Origin: an uncultured Alphaproteobacteria bacterium
Lineage (GTDB): Bacteria > Pseudomonadota > Alphaproteobacteria > HIMB59 > GCA-002718135
Reading direction: 5' to 3'
Assembly (NCBI GenBank): GCA_902621305.1
Contig: CACNLM010000009.1
Span: forward strand, 1 to 61,999
DNA: 61,999 nucleotides
Translations under genes and position numbers: made by a program
Notes under the pieces: generated by a model
What the model saw: only the letters and a program-made list of their open reading frames with translations
Database searches by the model: none
What the model was told of the DNA's origin: nothing
In this document: positions 9,677-61,999 of the stretch, one piece after another
Position numbering within the stretch: position 1 is the first letter of the stretch
How the letters are laid out: each line of letters starts with the position of its first letter

Positions 9677-9679
9677 TAA

Positions 9680-11116: not shown

Positions 11117-12590
11117 TAACTATTTCATAGTTTGTTATAATTAGTTCAAGTGATAATCTCATAGGATCTAAAAATAGATTTGGAAATACACCTAATAATA
11201 TTACTGAAATTGCTAAAGGAATTAATATGATTTTCTCTCTTGTGTTTATATCTAAAATATCTGCAAGTTTATTATTAGTTATGGTGCCAAAAATAATTCT
11301 TTTATAAAGGTATAGCATGTAAACAGCGGATAATATTATTCCAAAAGCCGCACCAATAACAACGTAACTTGAAAATTTAAATGCACCAACAATAACTAAA
11401 AATTCTCCAATAAAACCACTAGTCCCAGGTAATCCAACTGATCCCAGCATAAAAATCATGAATACTGTTGCATAGAGTGGCATTCTTTGAACTAATCCTC
11501 CGTAAAATTCAATTTCTCTAGTATGCATTCGATCATAAATAACACCAACACATAAAAATAAAGCTGCTGAGACTAGTCCATGACTAATCATTTGCATCAT
11601 TGCTCCTTCTAAGCCTTGTTGATTAACCAAAAAAATTCCAATTGTTACAATTCCCATATGAGCAACGGATGAATATGCAATTAGTTTTTTTATATCAGTT
11701 TGTGCTAGTGCCACTAACGAAGTGTATACTATAGCAACTATACTTAATGTCATAATTAAAGGAATAAAAAACTCTGTTGCTTCTGGAAGCATACCTAGAG
11801 AGAAGCGGATAAAACCATATCCGCCCATTTTTAAAAGTACTCCTGCTAAAATAACAGATCCAGCCGTTGGAGCTTCAACATGGGCATCGGGCAACCATGT
11901 ATGAAAAGGCCACATAGGAATTTTAACTGCAAAGGAAGCAAAAAAGGCAAGCCAAAGAAACAACTGAGTATTATATGAAAAATAATTACCTTGTAAGAAC
12001 TCAATACTCATTGAACTTGTATTTCTATACATCACAATAATAGCAATCAACATGAGTACTGAACCCAAAAGAGTGTAGAGAAAGAATTTAAAAGAAGCAT
12101 AGATTCTTCTATTGCCTCCCCATATACCTATGATTAGATACATTGGTATTAATACTGCTTCAAAAAAAATATAAAATAAAAGTATGTCTATAGAAGCAAA
12201 CATTCCAATCATTACAGTCTCTAAAAATAAAAAAGAAAGCATGTATTCCTTGACTCTTTTTTTAATATTATTCCAACTAGCTAAAATACAAAGTGGGGTC
12301 AAAAATGTACTTAATAAAATCATAAAAAGTGAAATACCATCAACTCCAACATGGTAGAAGAAATTAAAATCATCAAACCATCTAAATTTTTCTTCATATT
12401 GGTAAGACGGATTGGAATAATCAAAACGTAGCCAGAGAATTAAACTTAAAATAAATGCTCCTAACGTTGTTAGCAAAGCAGCCCATTTAATATTAATTGA
12501 TGTTAATTCATCTTCTTTAATAAAAAGAATAATTAAAGCGCCAATTAAAGGTAAAAAAATTATTACTGATACTAATGGCCAGTCAATCAT
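11106..12590 (-). CDS. nuoM: NADH-quinone oxidoreductase subunit M
   Basis: Antiporter-like membrane subunit of complex I, 494 residues with about 14 helices. Recognisable pieces are the proton-channel Glu in FLFLETVMIGMF, FAVKIPMWPFHTWLPDAHVE, APTAGSVILAGVLLKMGGYG and TDIKKLIAYSSVAHMG. The 11-base overlap with nuoN and direct abutment to nuoL (next base) indicate coupled translation. Length and motifs are ordinary for NuoM. Confidence 0.97.
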   Translation of the reverse strand: MIDWPLVSVIIFLPLIGALIILFIKEDELTSINIKWAALLTTLGAFILSLILWLRFDYSNPSYQYEEKFRWFDDFNFFYHVGVDGISLFMILLSTFLTPLCILASWNNIKKRVKEYMLSFLFLETVMIGMFASIDILLFYIFFEAVLIPMYLIIGIWGGNRRIYASFKFFLYTLLGSVLMLIAIIVMYRNTSSMSIEFLQGNYFSYNTQLFLWLAFFASFAVKIPMWPFHTWLPDAHVEAPTAGSVILAGVLLKMGGYGFIRFSLGMLPEATEFFIPLIMTLSIVAIVYTSLVALAQTDIKKLIAYSSVAHMGIVTIGIFLVNQQGLEGAMMQMISHGLVSAALFLCVGVIYDRMHTREIEFYGGLVQRMPLYATVFMIFMLGSVGLPGTSGFIGEFLVIVGAFKFSSYVVIGAAFGIILSAVYMLYLYKRIIFGTITNNKLADILDINTREKIILIPLAISVILLGVFPNLFLDPMRLSLELIITNYEIVNAK

Positions 12591-47472: not shown

Positions 47473-48096
47473 TTAATATTTTTGTAATAAAACAATTTTT
47501 ATTTTTATTTTATTTTTGAAATCATTGTTCAAAGGTAAATAATTTAAAGGTCTAGAAATTTTACTGATTTTTAATGTCTTTTGATGTTTTTTTAAAATAC
47601 TTAAAAAATCCTGTTTCTCCCATAAATCTATTCTATGGGTAAATAGTACAAAGCCTTTTTCTTTGATATTTTTATTAATATTATCAAAAAATTTGTCAAA
47701 GTTTTTGCAATACGTCATCGAACCAATCAATGAAATAAGATCAAATTTTATTTTATAATGATGTAATTGTTCAAAGTTTTTTATTTGTAATTTTTTATAA
47801 ATTTTTTTTCCTGATGAAATTTTCACACTTTTTTTTGAAATATCTGAACCATAAATATGACTTTTTGGATAAACTGTTTTTAATTCAGCACCAAATAAGC
47901 CAGTTCCACATGCTAAATCTAAGATATTTTTTGGTTTAAAATTATTTGTTTCTTTTAAAAATTTAATGCTCTTTTTAGGTGCTTGATAATTCCATAACTT
48001 AAGTGTTTCATCATATGTTGCTGACCAATCATCATAATATTTTCTAGTTTTATTTACATTTCCAACACCTGAAACTAATGATTTAAAATTAGTCAT
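47473..48096 (-). CDS. Class I SAM-dependent methyltransferase
   Basis: 207 residues with the SAM-binding motif I ILDLACGTGLFGAEL and motif II HIYGSDISKKSV. The N-terminus KTRKYYDDWSATYDETLKLWNY resembles UbiE/Coq5-like and TPR-type methyltransferases. The substrate cannot be read from the sequence. It overlaps the carbon-nitrogen hydrolase by 8 bases, so it is the last gene of the accessory operon and is followed by hairpins. Confidence 0.82.
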   Translation of the reverse strand: MTNFKSLVSGVGNVNKTRKYYDDWSATYDETLKLWNYQAPKKSIKFLKETNNFKPKNILDLACGTGLFGAELKTVYPKSHIYGSDISKKSVKISSGKKIYKKLQIKNFEQLHHYKIKFDLISLIGSMTYCKNFDKFFDNINKNIKEKGFVLFTHRIDLWEKQDFLSILKKHQKTLKISKISRPLNYLPLNNDFKNKIKIKIVLLQKY

Positions 48097-48895
48097 ATTT
48101 TAAAGAAGGAATTTTTTTTCTTATTTTTTTAACATTAGAAATATTAATCGTTGAATTAAGAATTGCAGGCGTATTTTTAGTACTATTTACAATGTTCCCC
48201 CATGGATCTGCTACAAGAGAATATCCATAAGTCTTTCTTTTCATATGATGATTTCCACACATACCTGTTGCTACAATAAAAATATTATTCTCTATAGCTC
48301 GTGATCTATTCAAAACTTCCCAATGATCTTTTCCGGTTGGTCTAGTAAAAGCAGCAGGAACTAAAATAATTGAACAATCTTTTTTAGCAAGCTGCCTATA
48401 CAAATTAGGAAATCGTAAATCATAACAAATTGTCATTCCTAATTTAATATTATTAATTTTTGTAAAAATTATTTTATTTCCTGCTTTAAATAAATATGAT
48501 TCTTGATGTTTTTCATTATTATTAATTTTGACATCAAACATATGAATTTTATCATATGTTTTTTTTATCACTCCATGATTATCAATAAAAAAAGATCTGT
48601 TAACTAGTTTGCGTTGTTTTTTTACTCTTAAGAGTAAAGAACCAAGATTTATATTAACCTTATTTTTTTTAGCAAAATTTTTTGCCATTTTTAAAACTGG
48701 GCATGTATTTTGATATGGGGCATTTAATAATAAAAAATTTTTATCATTAGTAATAATGTTGGAGCATTCTGGTGTGCAAATCAAATGAGGTTTAAATTTT
48801 AATGTTTTTTTAAAATTTTGTTCTAAATTGTTTGCATTCAAATTTGCTATGTGACTAGCTGAAAATTGAATTTGAGATATTCTAAGTTTACCCAT
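48089..48895 (-). CDS. Carbon-nitrogen hydrolase (Nit/omega-amidase family)
   Basis: About 268 residues. The nitrilase-superfamily catalytic triad is visible as Glu in ICTPECSN, Lys in YDKIHMFD and Cys in GMTICYDLRFP. The DHWEVLNRSRAIENNIFIV segment is typical of NIT1-like deaminated-glutathione amidases, so metabolite repair is a plausible role. I chose the ATG at 48895 (MGKLRISQIQFSA), just after the MFS gene stop. A longer start at 48946 would add 17 hydrophobic residues that overlap that gene and do not belong to the fold. Confidence 0.88.
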   Translation of the reverse strand: MGKLRISQIQFSASHIANLNANNLEQNFKKTLKFKPHLICTPECSNIITNDKNFLLLNAPYQNTCPVLKMAKNFAKKNKVNINLGSLLLRVKKQRKLVNRSFFIDNHGVIKKTYDKIHMFDVKINNNEKHQESYLFKAGNKIIFTKINNIKLGMTICYDLRFPNLYRQLAKKDCSIILVPAAFTRPTGKDHWEVLNRSRAIENNIFIVATGMCGNHHMKRKTYGYSLVADPWGNIVNSTKNTPAILNSTINISNVKKIRKKIPSLKYD

Positions 48896-48899
48896 TATT

Positions 48900-50060
48900 T
48901 TACTTATATTTAAATAAAAATATAACAGCACAAATAAATACAACAAATGTTAATAAATACATATTTAATGTTAATGAATATGTTTCAGCTAGAAAACCAA
49001 TTCCAGCAGGCAAAATCATTGTAGAAGACAATCCAATAGTTATCAGATTAGTCACAGTCATTGGGATACTTTCATTGGATTGTTTAACCGCTTGTCGAAT
49101 TATTATAGGAACTAAATTTGCAATAGCAAATCCATAAATACATAGAACTCCTAGTATAATATAGAAGTTATTTGTTAATAAAGACAAAAACATTATAGCT
49201 GCGCCAATCATCACAAAGTGACAACCTACAACTTTTTCAGTGAATAAATTAATCAAAGAATTTGAAAATAAATTTGCAAAAATTCCTCCAATGCTAAAAA
49301 AAATTAATCCCATACTTGCAAAGTATAGAGGAGTATTTAAATCTTTTGACAACCATAATGTCGACCAATCCATAATTATTCCACCTGATCCAAAAACAAA
49401 AAATAACAAAAATCCAAATAAAAGAACATTTGTCTCTGGTAATTTAAATTTCTCACCTTCGCCTTTAAAATCTAAATCTCGAGGTAATCCATAAGAATAT
49501 ACAAAAGAGGAAACTAAGATTGATAAAAAGGATAAGATCGTAAACGATATGTAAGGTTCATAATTATTTCTCATTATTAAACCCGCTAATCCCCCTCCAA
49601 GGAGAATTCCTAAATTAAATCCCATGGCATAATACGGTGTAATAATTTTTTTAAAATGTCTTTCAATAAGTTGACTATGTATACCTCCAATTGGTCCAGA
49701 AGCACCCCATCCTATTCCGCCAGATATAAAAGTTAATAAAAAATAAAAATATGATGAGGAAATAACAGTCAATAAGGCGGAAAATGTAACAATAGGAAAA
49801 GCTAAAGTCATAACTAATTTAGTTCCATATTTTGGGACTAATATCCTTCCAGCAATTTGATTAGAAATTATAAAAAAAATACCAAAAAGTAATATTGCAT
49901 AGCTTAAATCAGACTCGTCAATTGAAAGTCTTTCCATATTCCAAGGTGTTATTCCAAAATAACAGCCCACGACTATCATTGGATAGGTAGAAGTAATTAC
50001 TGACGCAATGGTAGCTCTTCTAAAAATTATTTTTTCTTCTAACACAAAATTTTTTACCAA
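48900..50060 (-). CDS. Major facilitator superfamily transporter
   Basis: 386-residue inner-membrane carrier with about 12 predicted helices. The loop 2-3 region GRILVPKYGTKLVM and the gating GYxxG-like pieces fit MFS carriers. The substrate is unknown; the overall look (short loops, GxxxGG-rich helix 5) resembles YbjJ- and fucose-permease-like sugar carriers. It overlaps the aldo/keto reductase by 7 bases, placing it in the ADP-ribosylglycohydrolase-like operon, where it might export a product or import a second substrate. Confidence 0.85.
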   Translation of the reverse strand: MVKNFVLEEKIIFRRATIASVITSTYPMIVVGCYFGITPWNMERLSIDESDLSYAILLFGIFFIISNQIAGRILVPKYGTKLVMTLAFPIVTFSALLTVISSSYFYFLLTFISGGIGWGASGPIGGIHSQLIERHFKKIITPYYAMGFNLGILLGGGLAGLIMRNNYEPYISFTILSFLSILVSSFVYSYGLPRDLDFKGEGEKFKLPETNVLLFGFLLFFVFGSGGIIMDWSTLWLSKDLNTPLYFASMGLIFFSIGGIFANLFSNSLINLFTEKVVGCHFVMIGAAIMFLSLLTNNFYIILGVLCIYGFAIANLVPIIIRQAVKQSNESIPMTVTNLITIGLSSTMILPAGIGFLAETYSLTLNMYLLTFVVFICAVIFLFKYK

Positions 50061-51037
50061 CGATGATGCACATCATCAAAAAAGTATTCTGTGTAAATAT
50101 TACTAATTTTTTCCATCAAAGAGGAAATTTCATTAATATTTGAAGAAGAAGTATTTAAATTCACATGATCTTTATTTTTAGCACCCGGAATAACAACACT
50201 AACTGCATCATGCATCAAAATCCATCTTAACGATAATTGTGATAAAGTTATTTCAGTTGGCATAATATTTTTTAAATCTTCAACTGCATCTAATGCTTTA
50301 TTAAAATTAACACCTGAAAATGTTTCTCCAACATCAAATGCATCACCATTTATATTATAATTTCTATGATCATCAGGAGCAAAAGAAGAATCTTTTGAGA
50401 ACTTACCTGTTAACAAACCACTTGCAAGAGGCACCCTGACTATAATTGCAACTTTTTTTTCTTTTGCTATTTCAAATAATTTTTCAGCAGGTTTTTGTCT
50501 AAAAATATTAAAAATAACTTGTATCGATTTTGTATTTGGACGTTTGATACAAGCTAAAGCTTCATCAACTGTTTGAACACTAAATCCGTAATGTTGAATT
50601 TTTCCTTTACTCACTAAATAATCTAACATTTCAAATGTATGATCAGATGAATATACTTCGGTTGGAGGACAATGCATTTGTAATAGATCAATTGTTTCAA
50701 CATTAAGATTGGATAAAGATTGATCTACATAAGACTCCATTAATTCCTTATTATAGTATCCCTCGGCTATATGAGGATTGATTTGTCTCCCAGCTTTTGT
50801 TGCCACATAAATTCTTTCAGATACTGATTTAATAAATTCACCTACAAATTTTTCACTTCTACCCATGCCATAGACATCAGCAGTATCAAAAAAATTAACA
50901 CCATTTTCAAATGATGATTTTAATACTTCTTTAGCTTTATCTTCACTAACTTCTCCCCAGTCTGCTCCAATTTGCCAGCAACCCAATCCAATTTCGGATA
51001 CGTTCCAATCTAATGATCCAAATTTTCTATATTTCAT
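50054..51037 (-). CDS. Aldo/keto reductase
   Basis: NADPH-linked TIM-barrel oxidoreductase, 327 residues. The catalytic set is visible: Asp and Tyr in FDTADVYGMGRSEKFV, Lys in IYVATKAG, His in LLQMHCPP. The C-terminal NADP-binding part includes VSVVIPGAKN. It starts 2 bases after the first 720-residue paralog's stop and overlaps the MFS gene. In a sugar-processing operon it would reduce or oxidise a released sugar or aldehyde; this is inference. Confidence 0.92.
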   Translation of the reverse strand: MKYRKFGSLDWNVSEIGLGCWQIGADWGEVSEDKAKEVLKSSFENGVNFFDTADVYGMGRSEKFVGEFIKSVSERIYVATKAGRQINPHIAEGYYNKELMESYVDQSLSNLNVETIDLLQMHCPPTEVYSSDHTFEMLDYLVSKGKIQHYGFSVQTVDEALACIKRPNTKSIQVIFNIFRQKPAEKLFEIAKEKKVAIIVRVPLASGLLTGKFSKDSSFAPDDHRNYNINGDAFDVGETFSGVNFNKALDAVEDLKNIMPTEITLSQLSLRWILMHDAVSVVIPGAKNKDHVNLNTSSSNINEISSLMEKISNIYTEYFFDDVHHRW

Positions 51038-51039
51038 AT

Positions 51040-53199
51040 TTATCCTACAACTATTTCATCAGTGACTAATGTACCATCTTCAACAATCAATCCCATAGCT
51101 CCTGAGTCAAGAAGATTATTTTTATCTTCATATTCTAAAACTAATTTATTTTCTAAATATGCAGAAAGAACATTATCTTTAATTTTAAGAGATAATTTAT
51201 AATTTTTAAAATATTCTAAATTAAAATCCATCTCCTTTAAAACATTTACTTCATTCACTACTTTTATTAACTGAAGTTTGTTTGAAGAATTAATTACCAG
51301 TCCATAATATCTATTTAAACCTTGCACTCTTACAGCAAGTCCGCCGGTAGTTAGTCTTTGCATCGCTAAATCTGCGCTAACAGTATAGTTTTTCCAAGCT
51401 TCATTACCCGTTATGATAATCCCTCTCCCACTATCTTTTGTTATTCTAAATGTTCTTGCGCCTACTTCCCATTTATCAACAGCATTTACCCAACTTGATT
51501 TCCACATAACCGCTTTTGATGTTTTCACACCCCGTTTATGTTCTCCAATATGTTTTGGTTTATAAAATGAACAATTTGGTTCTCCCGTAAATGTTAGATA
51601 GTTTATTAATAAGCTGCCAGAATTTGCTTCTTCAGATTCAATAGAAAATCCAACTTGAGTAATTGGATTTCCCTCAGTTGAAGGAATTTTCCATTTTAAG
51701 TTATGTGATTTACCTGGATACAAAATTATTTCCTCTGAATTAATTCTTTCATATTCATCATCTTTCCCAAACATATTTATGAAACATTTAACATTGATTG
51801 GTTTATCTGAACTTGTAACAAAATTAATTTCAGATTCAATTGTTTGACCAGAATATAATAATGGAGATGAAATAAAATTATAACTTTGAAAAAATCTCTC
51901 TTTAGCTTTCCCCGTTAATTCATGTAACTCTTGAGGAAAAAATACATCTACCAATGCTTCAGAGAAGACACCGGGTGCTACTCTATCAAATTTAATCTCA
52001 AGGGCTCTTTTTCCAATTTTACTATCATATTTTATATTTTGTACATGAGTGGAAATGTTCTTATTTTCTTTATAGTTAGCTCTCCACCCTTGAACTGAAC
52101 CAGGCATTTCAAAATGAAATCTAGATCCATTTTTAGGCTGAACAATTTCCTCATTGTTCATTCTTTTTGCAGTATTAATTACTTTATAAGCTTCAGTTAA
52201 TGCGTCTGTCTGTGTTTCGCCACCATTTGCCGTAGGGCAATACATTCTATCTTGGATTGGAGAAAGATAATCTGGGCCATTATTTAATCCTTCAAGACCA
52301 TTTTTAATTCCCATCAGGCAACCAACATTTCCTGAGTTACAATCTGTATCTCGACCTGCAGTATTAACAATCATTAATGTTTTTTGAAGATCATCATCCC
52401 CAAATAATAATGATAGAATGATAATAGCATGGTTAGGTATCATATGACACTCACCTAGATATTTATCATAATCATAGTTTTCAGCTAAAAATTCTCTTGC
52501 TTGCATCCAGTTACTATTACCTGATCGTATATTTTGTAATTCTCCAATTACTTTGTAAATCTCAGATGTATTTGGAATATATTTTTTACTTTCATTAATT
52601 ATTTTATTAATATCTTTTTCAATAAAAGCTAAAGACTCCATTGCGGCTACCATTTGTGCTCCGTAAATCGCTTCGCCATCATGACTTACACTTGCAGCTT
52701 TTTTTGCAAGATCAGCAGCTTTTTCTGGATCACCTGGCGATACTAAAGCCCATCCATCAATAAATATTTGAGCTCCTATTTGTTGTGCAACAACTTCTCC
52801 ATTTGTTTCAATCGAACCACTCATTGGGGCGTGAATGCCTGCCTTAAGGTTTTGGAATGCAGTATCCTCAGCTGAATGACCTCTGCCTCCCCACCACAAA
52901 ACAGTTTTATTTTCTATAAGATTATTTAACCAACTTTGACCAATTTGTTTTGGAGTAATATTAGGATCATAATTATTTTCTCTTAAAGCTCTTAAAAAAG
53001 TAAAGGTACCGGTAATATCATCATCAGTTACTACTAATGGAACATTTAATTTCTCATTTACATAGTAATTAATCTCACCTAACTCTTCTAATATTCTTTC
53101 GTGAGTCCATTGCTCAAAAGGACGTCCTAGATAAACACCTATTAATTTGCCAAGTACACCTGCATATACTTTTTCCTCATAAACTTTATCTAGTTTCAT
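51040..53199 (-). CDS. ADP-ribosylglycohydrolase-like multidomain protein, paralog 4 (last in operon)
   Basis: About 719 residues, cytoplasmic (no signal peptide or membrane helix). The N-terminal ADP-ribosylglycohydrolase-like domain (~1-340) carries the two metal motifs VTDDDITGTF and AGRDTDCNSGNVGC. A beta-rich middle domain (~360-540) and a lectin/DUF1080-like C-terminal domain (~580-719, with GGLAVRVQGLNRYYGLVI) follow. The active-site-side loop reads VLWWGGRGHSAEDTAF, like paralog 1. It is the most divergent copy overall (for example GRDTD instead of GWDTD). The ATG at 53199 is preferred over 53202 because it gives proper spacing to the GAGGAGG ribosome site. Confidence 0.88.
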   Translation of the reverse strand: MKLDKVYEEKVYAGVLGKLIGVYLGRPFEQWTHERILEELGEINYYVNEKLNVPLVVTDDDITGTFTFLRALRENNYDPNITPKQIGQSWLNNLIENKTVLWWGGRGHSAEDTAFQNLKAGIHAPMSGSIETNGEVVAQQIGAQIFIDGWALVSPGDPEKAADLAKKAASVSHDGEAIYGAQMVAAMESLAFIEKDINKIINESKKYIPNTSEIYKVIGELQNIRSGNSNWMQAREFLAENYDYDKYLGECHMIPNHAIIILSLLFGDDDLQKTLMIVNTAGRDTDCNSGNVGCLMGIKNGLEGLNNGPDYLSPIQDRMYCPTANGGETQTDALTEAYKVINTAKRMNNEEIVQPKNGSRFHFEMPGSVQGWRANYKENKNISTHVQNIKYDSKIGKRALEIKFDRVAPGVFSEALVDVFFPQELHELTGKAKERFFQSYNFISSPLLYSGQTIESEINFVTSSDKPINVKCFINMFGKDDEYERINSEEIILYPGKSHNLKWKIPSTEGNPITQVGFSIESEEANSGSLLINYLTFTGEPNCSFYKPKHIGEHKRGVKTSKAVMWKSSWVNAVDKWEVGARTFRITKDSGRGIIITGNEAWKNYTVSADLAMQRLTTGGLAVRVQGLNRYYGLVINSSNKLQLIKVVNEVNVLKEMDFNLEYFKNYKLSLKIKDNVLSAYLENKLVLEYEDKNNLLDSGAMGLIVEDGTLVTDEIVVG

Positions 53200-53219
53200 C
53201 ATTCCTCCTCTTTTCTAGT

Positions 53220-55382
53220 TTATTCTATTGAGATTGAATCACTTTGAATAGCACCATTTTCAGTAAAAAATCCAATCATTCCCTCTTCATATGGGTTCGA
53301 TTTATCTTCAACTTCAATTAATAATTTATTATCAACAAAACCTTGTAATTTATTACCATCAACCTTAAATTTTAATTCATAGTCCTTAAAGAATTCAAGA
53401 TCAAAATCAATTTCTTTGAGAGTTTTCAAATCGTATTCCATTTTATTAATTTTAAGTTTATTTTCTTTTGTAAGTTCAAGAGAATAATATCTTTTAAGTC
53501 CTTGAGATCTAAGTATCAAACCTCCAGCAGATGCAAGAGGAATAGAAATCTTTGCTGAAATTGAATAATCTTTCCATGTTTCGCTTCCAGTCATTATATG
53601 GCCACGGCCTATACCTCTGACAACTTTAAATGACTCGTTGTGACGGTATTGCCATTTATCTACATCATTTACCCAAGCTCTTTTCCATAATTGGCCGTAA
53701 ACTTCCTCTTTGTAAAAAATACCTCTTTTAAATTCATCTATATGATCTGGTTTTTTGAATGTCATTTTTGGGGAACCAGATATGTTTAAATAATTAATTA
53801 ATAATTTTCCTGAAATATTATCATCAGAGTTTATACTTATACCAATTTGACCAATTGGGTTAGAAAATGTATCAGGAACACTCCACTCTAAAACACTATT
53901 TTCATTTGCTTTGAGATTATAATCTTCTGAGGTAATTTTAATTAATTTATCACCATCACCCCAATATTTTATAAACAAATTAATTCTTAGATCTTTTTCA
54001 GATCTTGAAATAATCTCTGTTTTTATCTTTTGTCCCGTGTAAACTATAGGGCAAGCAACATAGTCATAATGAAAATATCGTTGTACTTGATAGCCTTCTA
54101 ATTTGGTAAACCATTCAGGAAAAAAACTATCAACAAAAACTTCACTTGAAAGTCCAAAAGATAAATCTGTAAAGCTAACTTGTAATGCTCTCGTTCCATT
54201 ATCAGATTTAAATTCAACATTAGATAAACTAGTATTTAGATTGTTATCATTCGTTTTATCAACCATCCACCCTTGAGTTGCAGTTTCCATTTCAAAATTG
54301 TATCTTGCATTATTTTTAATAACTTTACTTTCAAGGCCATTCATTCTTCTTGTTATATTAATAATATTTTGACTTTCTAATAATGCGTCAGTCATGGTTT
54401 CAGAGCCATAAGCAGTTGGTAAATAAATTATATCATTAACTGGTGTTATAAAATCTGGACCCTTCTGGATACCTTCTAATTCATTTTTAATACCTAAAAT
54501 ACAACCGACGTTTCCTGAGTTGCAATCTGTATCCCAACCAGCAGTATTAACTATCATTAATGATTTTTGAAAATCATCATCTCCAAATAGTAAAGCTAAG
54601 ATAATGAGTGCATGGTTAGGTACGATATGACAATTTCCTGGAAATTTACTGTATCCATACTTATCTTCAATTTTAGATCTTGCTTGTTCCCAATCTAAAT
54701 TACCAGAACTCCAATCCTGAATATCTGATATGAGTTTGTAAATTGTTGAGTCAGTTGGTACAAATTTTTTACTTTCTTCGATAATTTTTTTAATATCATT
54801 TTCAATAAATGCCATAGCTTCCATTGCAGCAACAACTTGAGCGCCGTATACAGACTCTCCATCATGACTAACACTTCCGGCTCTTTTTGCTAAATCAACT
54901 GCTTGTTCTGGATCTCCAGGAGAAACCATTCCCCAACCATCAATAAATATTTGCGCTCCAATTTGTTCAGCAATTACTTTACCATTTTGTGCAATTGAGC
55001 CACTTTCAGGTGCATGAATGCCTTGTTTAAGATTCATGTAGGCACTTTCTTCAGTTAAAACTCCCTTTCCAGCCCAAGCAAGTACTGTCTGGTTTTCTAT
55101 GCAATAATTTAACCAAGTTTGACCAATTTGTTTGGGAGAAATATTTTTATCAAAGTTAAAATGTTTTAAAGCATTTATAAATCTAAACGTACCAGTTAAA
55201 TCATCATCTGTAACGTGTATTGGAAAATCAAGTTTATCGTTTACATAATAATTTATAGGACCTAGTTCTTCCATGATCCTATCATAATACCAACCTTCAA
55301 ATGGTCTGCCCAAATAAACCCCAATGATCTTTCCTAGAACGCCGGCATAAACTTTACTTTCAAATACTTTATCTAAATTCAT
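53220..55382 (-). CDS. ADP-ribosylglycohydrolase-like multidomain protein, paralog 3
   Basis: 720 residues with the same three-domain plan. Metal motifs are VTDDDLTGTF (~58-67) and AGWDTDCNSGNVGC (~281-294), and VSHDGESVYGAQVVAAMEAM lies between. The loop near residue 102 reads VLAWAGKGVLTEESAY, so it belongs with paralog 2 in a second active-site subtype. The C-terminal domain has GGLILRSQGLKRYYSLEL. A GGGAG ribosome site precedes the start; the gene follows paralog 2 after 25 bases. Confidence 0.88.
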   Translation of the reverse strand: MNLDKVFESKVYAGVLGKIIGVYLGRPFEGWYYDRIMEELGPINYYVNDKLDFPIHVTDDDLTGTFRFINALKHFNFDKNISPKQIGQTWLNYCIENQTVLAWAGKGVLTEESAYMNLKQGIHAPESGSIAQNGKVIAEQIGAQIFIDGWGMVSPGDPEQAVDLAKRAGSVSHDGESVYGAQVVAAMEAMAFIENDIKKIIEESKKFVPTDSTIYKLISDIQDWSSGNLDWEQARSKIEDKYGYSKFPGNCHIVPNHALIILALLFGDDDFQKSLMIVNTAGWDTDCNSGNVGCILGIKNELEGIQKGPDFITPVNDIIYLPTAYGSETMTDALLESQNIINITRRMNGLESKVIKNNARYNFEMETATQGWMVDKTNDNNLNTSLSNVEFKSDNGTRALQVSFTDLSFGLSSEVFVDSFFPEWFTKLEGYQVQRYFHYDYVACPIVYTGQKIKTEIISRSEKDLRINLFIKYWGDGDKLIKITSEDYNLKANENSVLEWSVPDTFSNPIGQIGISINSDDNISGKLLINYLNISGSPKMTFKKPDHIDEFKRGIFYKEEVYGQLWKRAWVNDVDKWQYRHNESFKVVRGIGRGHIMTGSETWKDYSISAKISIPLASAGGLILRSQGLKRYYSLELTKENKLKINKMEYDLKTLKEIDFDLEFFKDYELKFKVDGNKLQGFVDNKLLIEVEDKSNPYEEGMIGFFTENGAIQSDSISIE

Positions 55383-55407
55383 TTTATTCTCCCAAATGAT
55401 TGTTCTA

Positions 55408-57612
55408 TCAATTTATAGAAATTTCATCACTGATAATAGTTCCATTTTCAACAATACAACCTATCATTCCTTTCTCAAATTGATTTGTTTTATCTTCAAC
55501 TTCAATTAACAACTTATTGTTAATAAAACCTCTTAAAATATTATTATTTGCCTCAAAACGCATTTCGTATTCCTCAAATGGTTCAAATTTAAAATCTATT
55601 TCTTTTAGAGTTTTTAGACCATACTCCATTTTATTAATTTGTAATTTATTTACAGATTTAATTTCTAGAGAATAATATCTTTTGAGTCCTTGTGATCTTA
55701 TCACTAATCCTCCAGAGGACGCTAATCGAAACATTATTTTTGAATTAACTGAATAATTTTTCCATTCAGAAGAACCAGTAAAAACATGGCCTCTAGATGC
55801 GTTTTTTATTAAGCCGAAAGAATTTTTTCCGTACCCATACCATTTGTCTACATCATTTACCCACGCTAGTTTCCATAATTGACCATAATATTTATCTTCA
55901 TCAGGAATATAAACGCCATTTGTTAAAGATTTGATATCATGACTTACAAGATTTGCTCGATTATCTTTAATATGTTCAGGTTTTCTAAATGTCATTTTAG
56001 GTATTCCAGTAATATCAAGATAATTAATTAAGACTTCACCCGATGCTTGTTCATCAGAGGAAATAGAATATCCAATCTGAGTAATGGGATTTGAAAATGT
56101 ATCAGGAACTTTCCATTCTATTGTTTTACTTTCATCATCTGAAAAGAAGTATTCTTCTGAACTTATTTTATATAACTTATCTCCTTCTCCATAATATTTA
56201 ATAAATAATTTAATATTTATATCTTTTTTAGTTTTTGAAATTATTTCAGTTTTAATATTTTGACCAGAATAAATTATAGGACAGCCAACAAAACTGTACA
56301 CCATAAGCATCATTTCCTGTTGTTCATTTAAAGTTGTAAACTCTTCTGGAAAAAAAGTATTTACATATAACTCGCTATTAATACCTTTTGTTAAATTATT
56401 AAAATTTATCTCAAGTGCTCTATTTCCAATTTTAGATTTATATTCGATATTTTTTAAATGAGTATTCTGATTATTATCATTTGATTTATCAACTATCCAT
56501 CCTTGAGTAGATGTTTCCATTTCAAAATTATATCTTGCATTATTTTTTATAACCTTACTTTCAAGACCATCTAACTTTCTTCTTATGTTGATTATATTTT
56601 GACTCTCTCTAAGAGCATCTGTCATCGTTTCTGAACCACGAGCTGACGTTATATATAATGTATCATTTACTGGTGAAATAAAATCTGGACCCTTCTGAAT
56701 TCCTTCTATGCCATTTTTAATACCCATATAGCAGCCTACATTTCCTGAGTTGCAATCTGTATCCCAGCCAGCAGTATTAACAATCATTAACGTTTTCTGA
56801 AAATCATCATCTCCAAATAACAATGCCAAAATAATTAAAGCATGGTTTGGAACAATATGACAGAAACCTTGATATTTATTATATCCATATTTTTCCTCAA
56901 TTTTAGATCTTGCTTGCTCCCAATCTAAATTACCAGATCTCCAATCCTGAATGTCTGAAATTAATTTATATATAATAGAATCATTAGGAATATATTTTTT
57001 ACAATGTTCTATTATTTTCTTTGTATCTTTCTCAATAAATGCCATCGCTTCCATAGATGCAACCATTTGAGCTCCATATACAGACTCGCCATCATGACTA
57101 ACACTTCCTGCTCTTTTTGCCAAATCTGCTGCAAAATCAGGATCACCAGCAGCGATCATACCCCATCCATCTATAAAAATTTGAGCACCTATTTGTTCAG
57201 CTATAATTTTACCATTTCTTTTAATTGATCCACTTTCAGGTGCTTCTATACCTTCTTTTAAATTTAAATAAGCGCTTTCTTCCGTCAGTAATCCTTTCCC
57301 AGCCCATGCTAAAACAGCTTGATTTTCTAAACAATAATTTAACCAGGTATCGCCAATTTGCTTTGATGTAATGTTTTTGTCAAAATTAAAATCTTTAAAA
57401 GCTTTAATGAAAGTAAAAGTACCATTTAGATCATCATCTGTTACGTGCATTGGTACATTTAATTTATCATTCACATAATAATAAACAGGACCTAGTTCTT
57501 TCATTATTTTATCGTATGGCCAACCCTCAAAAGGTCTTCCTAAATATACTCCAATAATTTTTCCTAAGACGCCTGCGTAAACTTTATTTTCAAATATATG
57601 ATCTAATTTCAT
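55408..57612 (-). CDS. ADP-ribosylglycohydrolase-like multidomain protein, paralog 2
   Basis: 734 residues, the longest copy. Metal motifs VTDDDLNGTF and AGWDTDCNSGNVGC are kept; the first has Asn where the other copies have Thr. The loop reads VLAWAGKGLLTEESAY. An insertion of about 14 residues around NRANLVSHDIKSLTNG lies before the C-terminal domain. No ribosome site is visible ahead of its ATG, unlike the other three copies, so it may depend on ribosomes arriving from paralog 1, whose stop is 12 bases upstream. Confidence 0.88.
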   Translation of the reverse strand: MKLDHIFENKVYAGVLGKIIGVYLGRPFEGWPYDKIMKELGPVYYYVNDKLNVPMHVTDDDLNGTFTFIKAFKDFNFDKNITSKQIGDTWLNYCLENQAVLAWAGKGLLTEESAYLNLKEGIEAPESGSIKRNGKIIAEQIGAQIFIDGWGMIAAGDPDFAADLAKRAGSVSHDGESVYGAQMVASMEAMAFIEKDTKKIIEHCKKYIPNDSIIYKLISDIQDWRSGNLDWEQARSKIEEKYGYNKYQGFCHIVPNHALIILALLFGDDDFQKTLMIVNTAGWDTDCNSGNVGCYMGIKNGIEGIQKGPDFISPVNDTLYITSARGSETMTDALRESQNIINIRRKLDGLESKVIKNNARYNFEMETSTQGWIVDKSNDNNQNTHLKNIEYKSKIGNRALEINFNNLTKGINSELYVNTFFPEEFTTLNEQQEMMLMVYSFVGCPIIYSGQNIKTEIISKTKKDINIKLFIKYYGEGDKLYKISSEEYFFSDDESKTIEWKVPDTFSNPITQIGYSISSDEQASGEVLINYLDITGIPKMTFRKPEHIKDNRANLVSHDIKSLTNGVYIPDEDKYYGQLWKLAWVNDVDKWYGYGKNSFGLIKNASRGHVFTGSSEWKNYSVNSKIMFRLASSGGLVIRSQGLKRYYSLEIKSVNKLQINKMEYGLKTLKEIDFKFEPFEEYEMRFEANNNILRGFINNKLLIEVEDKTNQFEKGMIGCIVENGTIISDEISIN

Positions 57613-57624
57613 TTATTATCAAAC

Positions 57625-59790
57625 TTATTCTATACTAATTGAGTTAGATGATAATGTTCCGTCTTGAGCAATAAAACCAATCATCCCTGATTCAAATGAA
57701 TTATCTTTATCTTGTGTCTCAATTAAAAGTTTTCCATCTACATAACCTGATAATTTATTTCCATTAACTGTAAATCGTAATTCATAATCTTTATAAAATT
57801 CAAAATTAAAATCTACTTCTTTTAATGTTTCGAGTTCATAAAACATTTTATTTATCTGTAATTTATTTTTTGAAGTTAATTCTAAAGAATAATACCTTTT
57901 TACACCTTGAGATCTTATCACTAATCCTCCAGCTGATGCCAAAGGAAAATTCACTTTAGAAGAAACAGAATAATCCTTCCAAGAAGATGAACCCTGTAAA
58001 ATATGCCCTCTTCCCACACCGTTAATTATTTTAAAAGACTCCATCCATCTATATTGCCACTTATCAATATCGTTAACCCATGCTCTTTTCCATAATTGGC
58101 CATAAAATTCTTGATTGAAAAAATATCCATTTTTTGAAGCATTTTCTATATGATCAGGTCTTTTGAAAATTGTTTTCGGTGTACCTTCAATATCAAGATA
58201 ATTTATTAAAAGTTTTCCTGAAGAATTTGTATCTGAGGAAATTACAAACCCAATTTGTCCAATTGGATTAGAAAATGTATCTGGAACAGTCCACTCAATA
58301 GATTTTACTTCATTATTTAAAAGTTCATATTCCTCTGTATCTATTTGTTGTAATTTATCCTCTTCTCCCCAATATTTTATAAATAAAGTAACTTTAATAT
58401 TATTTTTACTTTTAGAAATTATTTCTGTTTTAATTTTTTGACCAGTATAAACTATTGGACATCCAACAAAATCATAGTGAAAAAATTTCTGCCTCTGAGC
58501 ACCTTTTAATTCAGTAAACCAATCTGGGAAAAAAGTATCTACATACACAACACTTGAATGACCAACTGATAAATTAGAAAAGTCAATTTCTAGAGCTCTT
58601 TGACCAATTTTTGATTCATAAGCAACATTTGCAATTCTAGTATTAAGATTGTTATCATTTAACTTATTCACCTTCCAAGCTTGAGTAGAACCTGGCATTT
58701 CAAAATTGTATCTTGCATTATTTTTTATTAAATTATTTTCCAAACCGTTAATCCGTCTTGTAATATTTACAATATTTTGACTTTCTCTAAGAGCATCAGT
58801 CATTGTTTCCGCTCCGTTACTAGTTGGAAGATAAATTGTATCATTAACAGGAGTAATATAATCAGGACCATCTTTTATACTTTCAAGTCCATTTTTAATT
58901 CCAAGAAAACATCCTACATTTCCTGAATTACAATCTGTATCCCATCCTGAAGTGTTAACAATCATTAAAGATTTTTGAAAATTATCATCGCCAAATAGTA
59001 ATGCTAATATAATTAATGCGTGATTTGGTACAATATGAACACCGCCTATAAATTTTTCATAACCATAGATATAATCTATTTTTTCTCTTGCTTGCTCCCA
59101 ATCTAAATTTCCTGATCTCCAATCTTGAATGTCAGATATAAGTTTAAAAATTGTTGAATCTTTTGGAATATATCTTTTGCAATGCTCAATAATTTTTTTT
59201 GTATCCTTTTCTATAAAAGCCATGGCCTCCATTGCAGCAACAACTTGAGCCGCATATACTGACTCACCATCGTGGCTAACACTCCCTGCTTTTTTAGCAA
59301 AATCGGCTGCTTGATCTGGATCTCCTGGTGAAACTAACCCCCAACCATCAATAAAGATCTGAGCACCTATTTGTTCGGCAACAATTTTACCATTTGTTTT
59401 AATAGATCCACTATCAGGAGCATGAATACCCTGTTTTAAATTTTGATAAGCAGTATCTTCTGATGACGTACCTTTACCACCCCACCATAAAACAGCCTGA
59501 TTTTCTAAACAATAATTTAACCATGTTTGACCGATTTGCTTTGAAGAAATATTTTTATCAAAATTAAAATCTTTTAAGGCGTTTATAAATCTAAATGTTC
59601 CAGTTAAATCATCATCTGTGATTTGAATAGGCATATTTAATTTATCATTTACATAATAATTAATTGGCCCTAATTCCTTTATAATTCTATCATACCACCA
59701 ACCTTCAAAAGGTCTGCCAAGATAGACACCTATGATTTTACCTAAAACTCCTGAATAGACTTTCTCCTGATATTCTTTGTTAAGTTCCAT
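57625..59790 (-). CDS. ADP-ribosylglycohydrolase-like multidomain protein, paralog 1 (first in operon)
   Basis: 721 residues. Domain 1 (~1-345): ADP-ribosylglycohydrolase-like, with ITDDDLTGTF at 57-66, VLWWGGKGTSSEDTAY at 100-115, VSHDGESVYAAQ at 171-182 and SGWDTDCNSGNVGC at 281-294. The two acidic motifs correspond to the paired metal-site motifs of DraG/ARH enzymes. Domain 2 (~357-545) is beta-rich, probably jelly-roll. Domain 3 (~585-721) resembles LamG/DUF1080 lectin-like folds. There is no signal peptide. A GGGAGG ribosome site precedes the start. It lies 15 bases behind the MalG-type permease, so the enzyme is made together with the importer. The true substrate is unknown; ADP-ribose chemistry is only the namesake. 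Confidence 0.88.
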   Translation of the reverse strand: MELNKEYQEKVYSGVLGKIIGVYLGRPFEGWWYDRIIKELGPINYYVNDKLNMPIQITDDDLTGTFRFINALKDFNFDKNISSKQIGQTWLNYCLENQAVLWWGGKGTSSEDTAYQNLKQGIHAPDSGSIKTNGKIVAEQIGAQIFIDGWGLVSPGDPDQAADFAKKAGSVSHDGESVYAAQVVAAMEAMAFIEKDTKKIIEHCKRYIPKDSTIFKLISDIQDWRSGNLDWEQAREKIDYIYGYEKFIGGVHIVPNHALIILALLFGDDNFQKSLMIVNTSGWDTDCNSGNVGCFLGIKNGLESIKDGPDYITPVNDTIYLPTSNGAETMTDALRESQNIVNITRRINGLENNLIKNNARYNFEMPGSTQAWKVNKLNDNNLNTRIANVAYESKIGQRALEIDFSNLSVGHSSVVYVDTFFPDWFTELKGAQRQKFFHYDFVGCPIVYTGQKIKTEIISKSKNNIKVTLFIKYWGEEDKLQQIDTEEYELLNNEVKSIEWTVPDTFSNPIGQIGFVISSDTNSSGKLLINYLDIEGTPKTIFKRPDHIENASKNGYFFNQEFYGQLWKRAWVNDIDKWQYRWMESFKIINGVGRGHILQGSSSWKDYSVSSKVNFPLASAGGLVIRSQGVKRYYSLELTSKNKLQINKMFYELETLKEVDFNFEFYKDYELRFTVNGNKLSGYVDGKLLIETQDKDNSFESGMIGFIAQDGTLSSNSISIE

Positions 59791-59805: not shown

Positions 59806-60648
59806 CTAACCTTTTGTTGCTCCACTGGTTAAACCAGCAATAAAACGTCTTTGAAAAAACATAAATAAAATAGCAATTGGTGCAGCCATTAAAATGGAAG
59901 CTGCGCTTACCAATCCATAATCATTTGCAAATCTACTTTGAAATGTAAATAAAATTGAGGAAATGGGTTTGTATTCATCAGTAATAATAAAAGTGATGGC
60001 AAATAAAAACTCATTCCAAACTGTTAATGATACAATAAGTGCAGTTGTTAAAAAAACTGGCCAAGAAAGAGGTAGGGCGACTCTTGTAAACAATTGCATC
60101 ACTGATGCCCCATCTAGTTTAGCAGCTTCAAAAAGTTCTGTAGGTAATTGCAACATATAAGAGCGAATTAAGAAAGTAGCAAAGGGGGCATTTAAGGCGC
60201 TATAAATAATAACTAAACCAATCCTTGTGTCTAGGAGGTATAAACTTTTCCACATTAAAAATAATGGTAAAATAAATAATTGAGCAGGAATACTTATTCC
60301 AACTAAAAGGTATAAGCCAACAACAATAGTTTGAATTCCTCTTGGATTTAAAACTGCCAAACTGAAGGCAGCTAAACCAGAAACGGTCAAATTTAATATC
60401 AATGTTCCGATCACTAAAGTAAGTGAATTCATAAATATTTGAGTGTAATTTCCATTCACCCAAGCATCATAATAATTCATTAATCTTATTTCATTTGGAA
60501 AACCTAAAGGATTTGCTCCAAATTCAGAAGATGGTTTTATAGAATTAAAAGCTAAAACTAGTAATGGTAAAATAATTGTTAAAGCCATAAAAATCAAAAT
60601 GGCGTGATTTATATAACTCGATCTTTGTCTAAATCTTGCAGTTGCCAT
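59806..60648 (-). CDS. Carbohydrate ABC transporter permease, MalG type
   Basis: 280-residue inner-membrane permease with 6 helices. The EAA loop is LPTELFEAAKLDGASVMQLFTRVALPLSWP, which belongs to the CUT1 (oligosaccharide/glycoside) family, and the C-terminus ends QRRFIAGLTSGATKG as in MalG-like proteins. The gene lies 8 bases after its partner permease and 15 before paralog 1. No ATPase gene is present in the visible operon. Confidence 0.94.
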   Translation of the reverse strand: MATARFRQRSSYINHAILIFMALTIILPLLVLAFNSIKPSSEFGANPLGFPNEIRLMNYYDAWVNGNYTQIFMNSLTLVIGTLILNLTVSGLAAFSLAVLNPRGIQTIVVGLYLLVGISIPAQLFILPLFLMWKSLYLLDTRIGLVIIYSALNAPFATFLIRSYMLQLPTELFEAAKLDGASVMQLFTRVALPLSWPVFLTTALIVSLTVWNEFLFAITFIITDEYKPISSILFTFQSRFANDYGLVSAASILMAAPIAILFMFFQRRFIAGLTSGATKG

Positions 60649-60656
60649 TTATAATT

Positions 60657-61535
60657 TTATACCTCCCAACCCATCCGCCTTAAAATTGCAAAGAAACCAA
60701 CTATAATTCCGACATAGAAGAACATCATAACACCTATAGTAGACGCATAACCAACATTCATTCGTTGAAAGGCTTGCGAGTACAGATGATTTGCTACAAC
60801 TTCAGAACTATACGCTGGCCCACCCATTGTTAAAATGTATACATAGTCAAATGTTGGGACAGACCAGATGATTATAATTATTAAAGATAGAACAAAAATT
60901 GGACGTATCATTGGTAAAGTAATGTATCTAAATTTTTGAAATTTTGTTGCTCCTTCAATATCAGCGGCCTCATAAAGAGAGTCATCCACTTGATACATTC
61001 CAGTTAAATAAATAATAACTAAGAAGCCCCAAAAATGCCACATATCTACCCAGGCAACAGCGTATAAAGCAGTCTCCTTCATTGCAAAAGGTGACTTAGC
61101 AAGAAAATCAATACCTTGATTCTCAAACCAACCACCTAAACCATGTCGTGGATGGAATATGTATCTCCAAATCAAACAGTTAACGATACTGGCTAGAATG
61201 TATGGAAAAAAATACACTAGTCTATAAAAAAGCTGTCCTCTTTTTATTCCAGTTAAAAGATATGCTATAATAAGTGCTACGATTACTGGTATTGTTAAGA
61301 ACATTACTGTCCAAATTATGTTGTGTTTAACTGCTTTCTTGAAAACACGGTCTCTAAATAATTCTTGAAAGTTTTCTAATCCAACGTAATTTATTCTGCC
61401 AAAACCATTCCAGTCCGTTAAACATAACAATAAACTTAGTATCGATGGGAATGCTACCACAAAGAAATGAATAAATATAACTGGAAATAAAAAGTACCAG
61501 GAAATTGCATTTATACTTGTTAAAAATTTTGGCAT
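60657..61535 (-). CDS. Carbohydrate ABC transporter permease, MalF type
   Basis: 292 residues with 6 helices. The EAA loop is VDDSLYEAADIEGATKFQKFRYITLPMIRP, the CUT1-type signature. The N-terminal WYFLFPVIFIHFFVVAFPSI and the NFQELFRDRVFKKAVKHNIIW region are typical. It is preceded by a 12-base-pair hairpin after the binding-protein gene, which probably reduces its expression relative to the binding protein. Confidence 0.94.
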   Translation of the reverse strand: MPKFLTSINAISWYFLFPVIFIHFFVVAFPSILSLLLCLTDWNGFGRINYVGLENFQELFRDRVFKKAVKHNIIWTVMFLTIPVIVALIIAYLLTGIKRGQLFYRLVYFFPYILASIVNCLIWRYIFHPRHGLGGWFENQGIDFLAKSPFAMKETALYAVAWVDMWHFWGFLVIIYLTGMYQVDDSLYEAADIEGATKFQKFRYITLPMIRPIFVLSLIIIIIWSVPTFDYVYILTMGGPAYSSEVVANHLYSQAFQRMNVGYASTIGVMMFFYVGIIVGFFAILRRMGWEV

Positions 61536-61589: not shown

Positions 61590-61999
61590 TTATCTTTTTC
61601 CAACTGGAACTAATGCATCGTCTGCACGAGCTTGATCCCAAAGTCTTTGAGATTCTTCCATGAATTCAAGTGGAGTAATATCTCCAGCCCAAACCACTTC
61701 CATATCTTTCCAAATATGAACACCTGGATCATTCGGATAGAACGTCCATGTTGTATATCCATAATTTCCAGAATCAGAAGCTTCTGCGAATTCAGTTAAG
61801 AATCTTTTTTGTCTTGGATCAATATTAGGATCAAAGTCAGCATCAGTGTATTTTAGTGGTAACAACCAAGCGCCATATCCTAAACTACCAGTAACTTTAA
61901 GAGCTCTTGCTTTATCCGAAAGAATCCAATCAATTACTTTTGCTGCTCCATCTGCATTTTTAGATGACGCGTTGATGGACATTGTTCCACCTGTTGCAA
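61590..61999 (-). CDS. ABC transporter solute-binding protein (sugar type), N-terminus cut by window edge
   Basis: Only the C-terminal ~135 residues are visible. The frame stays open through base 61999, reading ..ATGGTMSINASSKNADGAAKVIDW. The Met in that stretch is internal, not a start. GGT-x-S-I-x-x-x-SKN and AAKVIDWILSDKARAL are typical of family 1 sugar-binding lipoprotein or periplasmic proteins. Its place ahead of two CUT1 permeases confirms a carbohydrate or glycoside importer. The ligand cannot be inferred from the visible part. Confidence 0.9.
   Translation of the reverse strand, partial: ATGGTMSINASSKNADGAAKVIDWILSDKARALKVTGSLGYGAWLLPLKYTDADFDPNIDPRQKRFLTEFAEASDSGNYGYTTWTFYPNDPGVHIWKDMEVVWAGDITPLEFMEESQRLWDQARADDALVPVGKR

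Follow-up and report, generated by a model that had tools for sequence, protein, structure and literature searches.

What would a bacterium do with four genes for ADP-ribosylglycohydrolase (ARH)-like proteins standing in a row behind a sugar importer? The question is raised by a contig from an uncultured alphaproteobacterium of the HIMB59 group (assembly GCA_902621305.1, contig CACNLM010000009.1), analysed here as one stretch of 61,999 nucleotides and called the window. Four complete paralogs lie on its minus strand at 51040-59790, with 720, 720, 734, and 721 amino acids (aa), just as the original prediction described them (about 720-734 residues each). They are named ARH1 to ARH4 in order of transcription; these names are distinct from those of the human proteins hARH1 and hARH3. 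L- and G-numbers are labels of loci and genomes, respectively. The four paralogs are probably cytoplasmic metal-dependent hydrolases, and the operon would import and split a small glycoside. Hydrolysis of an imported glycoside had been proposed from the start; it is still the best-supported reading, since the importer linkage recurs beyond this genome.

All four paralogs belong to PF03747. Each has one such domain (approximately residues 14-306) with a score of 156.9-172.1 bits against a curated cut-off of 26.2 (E-values are given in the Table). With one paralog as query, 7,343 of 7,998 candidate proteins in the database are found at an E-value of 1e-10 or better, and the descriptive names among the matches listed are mostly ADP-ribosylglycohydrolase. 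No NCBIfam model reaches its cut-off for any of the four paralogs; the single match, to ARH3, is far under it. The profile search thus leads to PF03747 and not to a characterised family with known substrate. No hydrophobic signal sequence is visible by eye at any of the four N-termini, which agrees with the absence of a signal peptide claimed earlier. At the C-terminus there are weak lectin-like matches only, the best of which (PF21708, in ARH4) is exactly at cut-off. Profile positions 612-698 match three levanase entries at E 1e-4 (PDB 4b1l, 4azz, and 4b1m), which we take to be the C-terminal CBM66 module of Bacillus subtilis SacC. The reference for the SacC levanase CBM66 is PMC6560043. Unlike this module of SacC, the similar region is here part of an enzyme without a visible signal sequence.

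The active site was compared in two alignments. A1 contains 84 proteins of the long family: four from the window, three locus sequences, and 77 database sequences, which we chose from 121 kept out of 240 matches. A2 contains 13 sequences, including three short ARH proteins and a 577-aa neighbor from L028, and sets the register. E29, D59, D60, D61, D284, D286, and C287 are invariant in 84/84 proteins of A1, and E29, D60, D61, D284, and D286 are also invariant in A2. E29 is the flap Glu (Glu41 of hARH3), and D60, D61, D284, and D286 correspond to the metal-binding Asp77, Asp78, Asp314, and Asp316 of hARH3. According to Table 2 of PMC8141533, Thr76, Asp77, Asp78, and Asp316 of hARH3 bind MgA, while Asp314, Asp316, and Thr317 bind MgB; Asp77 and Asp314 also contact the 2''- and 3''-OH of the terminal ribose. 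hARH1 is reported to carry Ser (Ser54 and Ser305) at both Thr places (PMC9738213). These Thr/Ser ligands are not kept in the long family: D59 stands at the place of Thr76 and C287 at that of Thr317 in all 84 proteins. The register is that of a profile alignment to MJ1187 and DraG; GAAMRIYPLG of MJ1187 is aligned with GAQIFIDGWG of the long family. Both acidic motifs named in the original prediction are present in all four paralogs (TDDDxxGTF and DTDCNSGNVGC). Note, however, that it is the first Asp of DDD, and not the preceding Thr (Thr58, which is not conserved), that occupies the place of the hARH3 Thr ligand. Because D60-D61 and D284-x-D286 match hARH3 and D59 and C287 replace Thr76 and Thr317, the predicted metal site of the long family is dinuclear and of ARH type, but has a carboxylate and a thiol in addition. 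Outside HIMB59, DDD and DTDCN are found in the long frames listed except L148_7374, where the second motif was not found, and the partial frame of L151. The short ARH partners have TDDT and DTDS (L084-L088) or TDDT and DADT (L149 and L150). In these seven loci, a short ARH gene with TDDT thus exists in the same gene row as a long gene with DDD and DTDCN.

The long family shares with ARH/DraG proteins (hARH3, hARH1, DraG, and MJ1187) a common domain over approximately 290 residues, the flap Glu, and the four metal Asp residues. The paralogs could be ordinary ADP-ribosyl hydrolases, which would either strip proteins or nucleic acids of ADP-ribose or serve in the salvage of metabolites resembling it, the importer being an incidental neighbor. 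PF03747 membership, a domain profile that reaches DraG and hARH3, the retained flap Glu and Asp residues, and the many related loci without importer genes are all consistent with this explanation. We consider it quite unlikely, as both Thr/Ser ligands are replaced by Asp and Cys in 84/84 aligned proteins, CUT1 and ribokinase genes are recurrent neighbors, NCBIfam has no model at cut-off, and LacI fusions exist. Compared with ARH/DraG proteins, the window paralogs are longer (approximately 720 aa), have extra C-terminal regions, lie in a sugar-importer operon, and are without a known ADP-ribosylated partner.

The importer genes lie directly upstream of ARH1. A solute-binding protein (SBP) gene of the SBP_bac_1 family and two BPD_transp permease genes are co-oriented with the hydrolase genes, as expected of a CUT1 sugar-uptake operon. 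The aldo/keto reductase and the major facilitator superfamily (MFS) carrier are on the same minus strand, so that the predicted co-orientation of all these genes holds. Gaps between the four ARH genes are 12-25 bp, and those to the adjoining genes 2-25 bp; because of these short gaps, the operon is likely to be one transcription unit. The SBP gene is cut in the window, where its ORF is listed as 61590-61982 and was extended to 61997; the complete protein has 445 aa (from L005 and L009). CUT1 carbohydrate operons with cytoplasmic glycosidases likewise have SBP and permease genes beside a hydrolase gene, and the rhizobial versions described below add LacI and a UgpC-type ATPase. Unlike in classical CUT1 operons, the hydrolase here is of ARH type with a predicted metal site, and the HIMB59 operon is without an ATPase gene.

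The protein is present in 21 of the 61 genomes searched: the genome of the window and 20 of 36 others from its genus. None of the 24 genomes from a different family of the same order has it. Loci with the gene order SBP-permease-permease-ARH are found repeatedly in the genus, and the number of ARH copies is one, two, or four. One copy is found between permease and reductase in L071-L079 and L186 (a 96%-complete genome), two copies in L016 and L019-L027, and four in the window, L005, L007-L011, L013-L015, L017, and L018. Contig ends truncate L006, L012, L032, and L080, which were not assigned to a class. Near-identical loci come from marine alphaproteobacterial single cells, one of them Pelagibacteraceae bacterium AG-337-I02. 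L005, almost identical to the window, could derive from the same cell or a sister cell.

Importer linkage is therefore not unique to this genome, and it is also found outside the genus. CUT1 genes are co-oriented in one row with long ARH genes in rhizobia/Phyllobacteriaceae and in Deinococcus, and in some Chloroflexota they adjoin them. On plasmids of Rhizobiaceae and Phyllobacteriaceae (L084-L088), the order is LacI, permease, permease, SBP, short ARH, long ARH, and UgpC, with a ribokinase gene after this row in L088. L037, the sixth annotated locus of this group, has only ARH and UgpC, located behind an insertion sequence element. Two unannotated loci (L035 and L081), read with our own profiles, have LacI, SBP, permease, permease, ARH, and UgpC. 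In Deinococcus, L090 has LacI, permease, permease, SBP, a hypothetical gene, ARH, ribokinase, and long ARH, and L036 has SBP, permease, a RICIN-domain gene, long ARH, and a trehalase-family gene. In Mycolicibacterium (L089), LacI, a 408-aa ARH, SBP, two permeases, ribokinase, and UgpC are found, and an Enterobacter plasmid (L034) has LacI, ARH, and SBP without permeases. The plasmid-borne relatives are from soil, rhizosphere, root nodules, and a blood isolate (record source fields), so the glycoside need not be a marine one as had been suggested. Long ARH genes are rare in Proteobacteria: at E 1e-40, 2 of 398 genomes have them (one is the genome of the window), and a rhizobial query finds 2 of 385 alphaproteobacterial genomes at 1e-60, both of this genus. 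As a side observation, the ARH-UgpC genes are immediately followed in L086 (12171-14230) and L087 by a CoA transferase gene of CaiB type and a lyase gene resembling CitE.

In the Chloroflexota, the long protein is found in 19 of 301 genomes, that of L028 included. Twenty-one loci were counted (L028 and 20 fetched stretches). A co-oriented SBP/permease set adjoins the long ARH gene in five of them (L028, L137, L148, L149, and L150), and a ribokinase gene is directly upstream of it in three (L143, L145, and L146). Control windows, 20 in all, were taken from six of these genomes; three of them have a complete CUT1 set and two a ribokinase-type gene. Binomial figures for the neighbor frequencies (0.047 with the ribokinase loci taken as one event) are rough and are not used as proof, because the loci are related: two of the importer loci are both from G637, and those with ribokinase group in a single clade. 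A GH1 gene near the ribokinase-ARH pair in L143, L145, and L146 was dropped as operon evidence because an opposite-strand open reading frame (ORF), conserved as judged by eye, intervenes in L143 and L146. In L148, two long ARH genes (7371-11587, minus strand) form a tandem of independent origin next to SBP/permease genes.

Several observations weigh against the glycoside-hydrolase reading. The linkage to importer genes is clear in some lineages only. In 13 of the 21 Chloroflexota loci, the long ARH gene has neither importer nor ribokinase genes as direct neighbors (several of these contigs are short); among these are L132, L134, and L151, where importer genes are further off or on the other strand. 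Two Chloroflexota contigs outside the count (L029 and L031) have no visible importer over their 5.5 and 3.1 kb. In the Poribacteria, where the protein is found in 7 of 84 genomes, our profiles detect neither importer nor ribokinase in the seven loci (L030 and L180-L185). The HIMB59 operon itself has no MalK/UgpC ATPase gene and no ribokinase gene. The named relatives of the SBP with solved structures, matched with modest scores, include binders of chitin-oligosaccharide, xylo-oligosaccharide, and maltose/malto-oligosaccharide, and they do not indicate a substrate for the importer. The CBM66 match covers part of the C-terminal region at a modest E-value, and characterised CBM66 modules are reported to vary in specificity, binding fructan ends or xanthan (PMC11002231). 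Ribokinase over the curated cut-off is encoded in 48 of the 61 genomes (own included), with or without ARH, and the three Chloroflexota ribokinase loci form one clade in the tree and may represent one event.

The Poribacteria loci also bear on an oxidoreductive (3-keto type) pathway, in which an oxidoreductase would oxidise the glycoside, the ARH protein would cleave or dehydrate the product, and the aldo/keto reductase would close the redox cycle. Gfo/Idh/MocA genes exist on both sides of ARH in L030, the only one of the seven loci where they directly adjoin it, and 1-3 kb away in L182, L183, and L185; none is found in L180, L181, and L184, and 3 of the 20 control windows have such genes as well. 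The reductase gene follows the ARH set in those HIMB59 loci that reach that far, with copies 71-99% identical. As a pathway clue it failed: it does not define the pathway, because copies 60-65% identical exist at unrelated places in relatives without ARH. One paralog has a weak similarity, under cut-off, to PF06439 (3-keto-disaccharide hydrolase), which probably reflects a shared lectin-like fold only. No Gfo/Idh/MocA gene is found in the HIMB59 operon, and our own profile detects none in those profiled loci that carry linked CUT1 genes. This pathway seems unlikely.

If the paralogs are hydrolases of an imported glycoside, what is the glycoside? The ribokinases of L143, L145, and L146 score 322, 321, and 327 bits, over the curated cut-off of 299.65. 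Those of L088, L089, and L090 are ribokinase-type PfkB proteins under this cut-off, for which ribokinase is still the best model. The genome of the window encodes a ribokinase outside the operon (309.5 bits, over cut-off), which is permissive only because relatives carry ribokinase whether or not ARH is present. In L028 (2850-4460, minus strand), a LacI DNA-binding domain and an ARH domain are fused in one gene, and with this fusion as query both Pfam domains are found in 39 of the 120 matches listed (P0121-P0240). The ARH domain in these fusions suggests a sensor of a small ligand; because an ARH-type domain would be used as sensor, the ligand would be a small molecule. Known ARH chemistry is action on ribosyl bonds, as described in PMC8141533 and PMC7050489. 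Based on the ribokinase neighbors, the LacI-ARH fusions, the ribosyl chemistry, and, permissively, the own ribokinase together, the substrate is perhaps a riboside, somewhat short of an even chance; it may also be another furanoside or an oligosaccharide. The gene next to the fusion in L028 (4676-6409, minus strand) encodes the 577-aa ARH protein used in A2. Its N-terminus appears by eye to be hydrophobic and signal-like, and the protein is perhaps exported.

The first guess had been "nucleoside-like". The ribokinase neighbors in other lineages speak for it, but there is none in this operon. In a stricter form, the paralogs would be nucleoside hydrolases in disguise, acting on an imported nucleoside or modified nucleoside. 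Such a substrate would have to pass a CUT1 importer, and the named relatives of its SBP include, with modest scores, the oligosaccharide binders mentioned above. Ordinary nucleosides have a beta linkage. The known enzymes hARH1 and hARH3 are reported to select alpha-1'' linkages (PMC7050489). A point in favor, besides the ribokinase neighbors, is E. coli yegTUV, where the predicted ADP-ribosylglycohydrolase YegU is encoded beside a putative nucleoside symporter and a putative sugar kinase; the functions are called unknown in the lines on yegTUV in PMC10819704. The symporter there is of MFS type in contrast to the CUT1 importer here, and the likeness is one of gene neighborhood. On balance, nucleoside hydrolysis is distinctly improbable.

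For the glycoside reading, the following mechanism can be proposed. The CUT1 importer (SBP and two permeases) would take up a small glycoside with an ATPase borrowed from elsewhere in the genome, where UgpC-like ATPases are encoded (the best-scoring one, 49% identical, at C4:54297-55334). The four cytoplasmic ARH-type proteins would then hydrolyse it. By analogy with hARH3, the dinuclear metal site would bind the cis-diol of a furanose, with D59-D60-D61, D284, D286, and C287 replacing the Thr/Asp/Asp and Asp/Asp/Thr set, and the flap Glu E29 would assist at C1 by activating water or the leaving group. The remainder of the glycoside is probably recognised by the lectin-like C-terminal part. Ribose would most likely be the sugar set free, and the ribokinase encoded elsewhere in the genome would phosphorylate it. 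The reductase and the MFS protein may handle the aglycone, and the paralogs probably cover different aglycones or linkages. What the analysis demonstrates is the gene order and its recurrence, the conserved residues, and the purifying selection; the substrate, the reaction, and how the copies share the work are inferred. More tentatively, the long DDD/DTDCN proteins might be an undescribed class of metal-dependent furanosidases (ribofuranosidases), in which the ARH fold is retuned by an Asp/Cys site and lectin-like domains, fed by CUT1 importers, and drained by ribokinase; LacI-fused copies of the fold would sense the substrate, and HIMB59 would have expanded the enzyme to four specialised copies.

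Why four copies? The own genome (1,450,322 bases, 87% complete) has no PF03747 genes besides these four. The ratio of nonsynonymous to synonymous substitutions (dN/dS) is 0.045-0.104 for ARH1-4 when the window is compared with L009, L007, and L018, so each copy is held by purifying selection. Copy-specific changes were compared in 11 four-copy and 9 two-copy loci, which are mutually related and not independent, against the 52 non-HIMB59 rows of A1. Positions that are invariant or nearly so in these relatives are changed in fixed, copy-specific ways. W102 is Trp in 52/52 relatives, and also in ARH1, ARH4, and nine one-copy proteins; it is Ala in ARH2 and ARH3 (11/11 each) and in the two-copy ARH3 (9/9). 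The residue before D284 (the first Asp of DTDC) is Trp in 51/52 relatives and in three window paralogs, Arg in ARH4 (11/11), and His in its two-copy orthologue (9/9). N250/C251 vary among copies, and E29, D59-D61, D284, D286, and C287 are constant. Such a pattern would be expected of pockets that have specialised, if, as the sequence neighborhood suggests, the changed residues line the pocket. These changes fit the idea that each paralog may handle a variant.

Tandem paralogs with copy-specific changes would also be expected of an immunity array, in which ARH-fold proteins undo ADP-ribosylation by toxins of rivals or phages and are duplicated in an arms race. The ARH-fold entry 6dre, presumably a toxin-immunity protein, is among the profile matches. 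The fixed operon position beside a sugar importer, the strong purifying selection, the lectin-like C-terminus, and the result of PADLOC and PHROGs searches (0 families matched for each of the four paralogs) all argue against such an array, which is very improbable.

The trees place all HIMB59 copies in a single clade, in which ARH4 and its two-copy orthologue are sister to the rest and ARH1-3 separate late. The deep branching order is provisional, as amino-acid composition is unequal and branches are long according to warnings from the tree program. The wider tree used frames of at least 600 aa, mostly stop-to-stop and hence with extended N-termini, with eight HIMB59 loci; it omitted L151 (partial) and a 635-aa frame around the short L090 protein.

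The history of the copies can be followed in the genus. Eight of nine one-copy loci (all except L072) and four of ten two-copy loci were compared with the four-copy L009. In the one-copy loci, the SBP is 52-60%, the permeases 63-73%, and ARH 54-65% identical. In six of these eight loci, the flanks are close to L009 (ABC-F 96-98%, reductase 82-88%, MFS 81-94%), and in the five of the six that hold them MurA is 92-98% and HisG 98-100% identical. The flanks differ too in L077 and L079 (reductase 71 and 77%; ABC-F 65% in L079). Because the one-copy module has diverged while the flanks stay close, importer and enzyme appear to have been exchanged as a cassette. In the four two-copy loci, the SBP is 98-100% identical, the ARH3 orthologue 74-87%, and the ARH4 orthologue 83%. 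A simple explanation would be faster evolution of the ARH enzymes than of the importer. This idea was dropped, since the synonymous divergence (dS) between L009 and L022 is low in the SBP (0.06) and permeases (0.20-0.26) and high in the reductase (0.88), ARH3 (1.17), and ARH4 (1.50), which points to recent recombination of the importer genes. Strains with one, two, and four copies are a natural experiment, having nearly one importer and different enzyme sets.

HIMB59 is presumably the group also called AEGEAN-169. If the long ARH proteins act as proposed, a step of sugar use is added to this group. Broad sugar uptake is described as setting AEGEAN-169/HIMB59 apart from SAR11, and the sugar route into glycolysis is called unclear (PMC10308909). 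The main texts of PMC10308909 and PMC11366302 contain no words starting with "ribosyl" or "glycohydrolase". In one study, enrichment of the PF03747 domain was read as protein de-ADP-ribosylation (PMC7251102); if the long subfamily splits imported glycosides, the label ADP-ribosylglycohydrolase misleads. Among the titles listed in a full-text literature search, whose coverage largely excludes subscription journals, no ARH-type protein is named as a glycosidase. At this locus the ARH fold is put to a genuine and recurring use, of which no description was found in the literature searched, and the riboside-hydrolase hypothesis is testable.

Table. Genes of the ARH operon and its downstream neighbors in the window
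Feature	Position	Strand	Length (aa)	Remarks
SBP_bac_1 solute-binding protein	61590..61997	-		cut by contig end
CUT1 permease A	60657..61535	-	292	GlcT/UgpA-like
CUT1 permease B	59806..60648	-	280	GlcU/UgpE-like (NCBIfam similarity and own profile only)
ARH1	57625..59790	-	721	PF03747 at residues 14-306 (E = 1.2e-45); further region at ~360-560; lectin/CBM66-like towards C-terminus
ARH2	55408..57612	-	734	PF03747 (E = 1.2e-45); WWGG motif is AWAG, fixed in 11/11 four-copy loci compared
ARH3	53220..55382	-	720	PF03747 (E = 9.1e-48); WWGG motif is AWAG; orthologue in two-copy loci
ARH4	51040..53202	-	720	PF03747 (E = 2.7e-50); Trp before DTDC is Arg (His in two-copy loci)
Aldo/keto reductase	50054..51037	-	327	2 bp after ARH4
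MFS transporter	48900..50060	-		7-bp overlap with reductase gene
Carbon-nitrogen hydrolase (nitrilase family)	48089..48946	-		co-oriented; putative same-pathway role

A further co-oriented ORF downstream is methyltransferase-like as judged by eye. L077 (1-8000, from G430) lacks both the MFS gene and the genes that normally lie downstream; its nitrilase gene is followed by unrelated ORFs, so this cassette flank differs. On the other side of the importer, an HpcH/HpaI-type aldolase gene is divergent from the importer genes (L009:5778-6566, minus strand, and its orthologues) in the HIMB59 loci that reach that far. It is a possible partner of the operon; one extra ORF lies between it and the importer in L020, L078, and L079.

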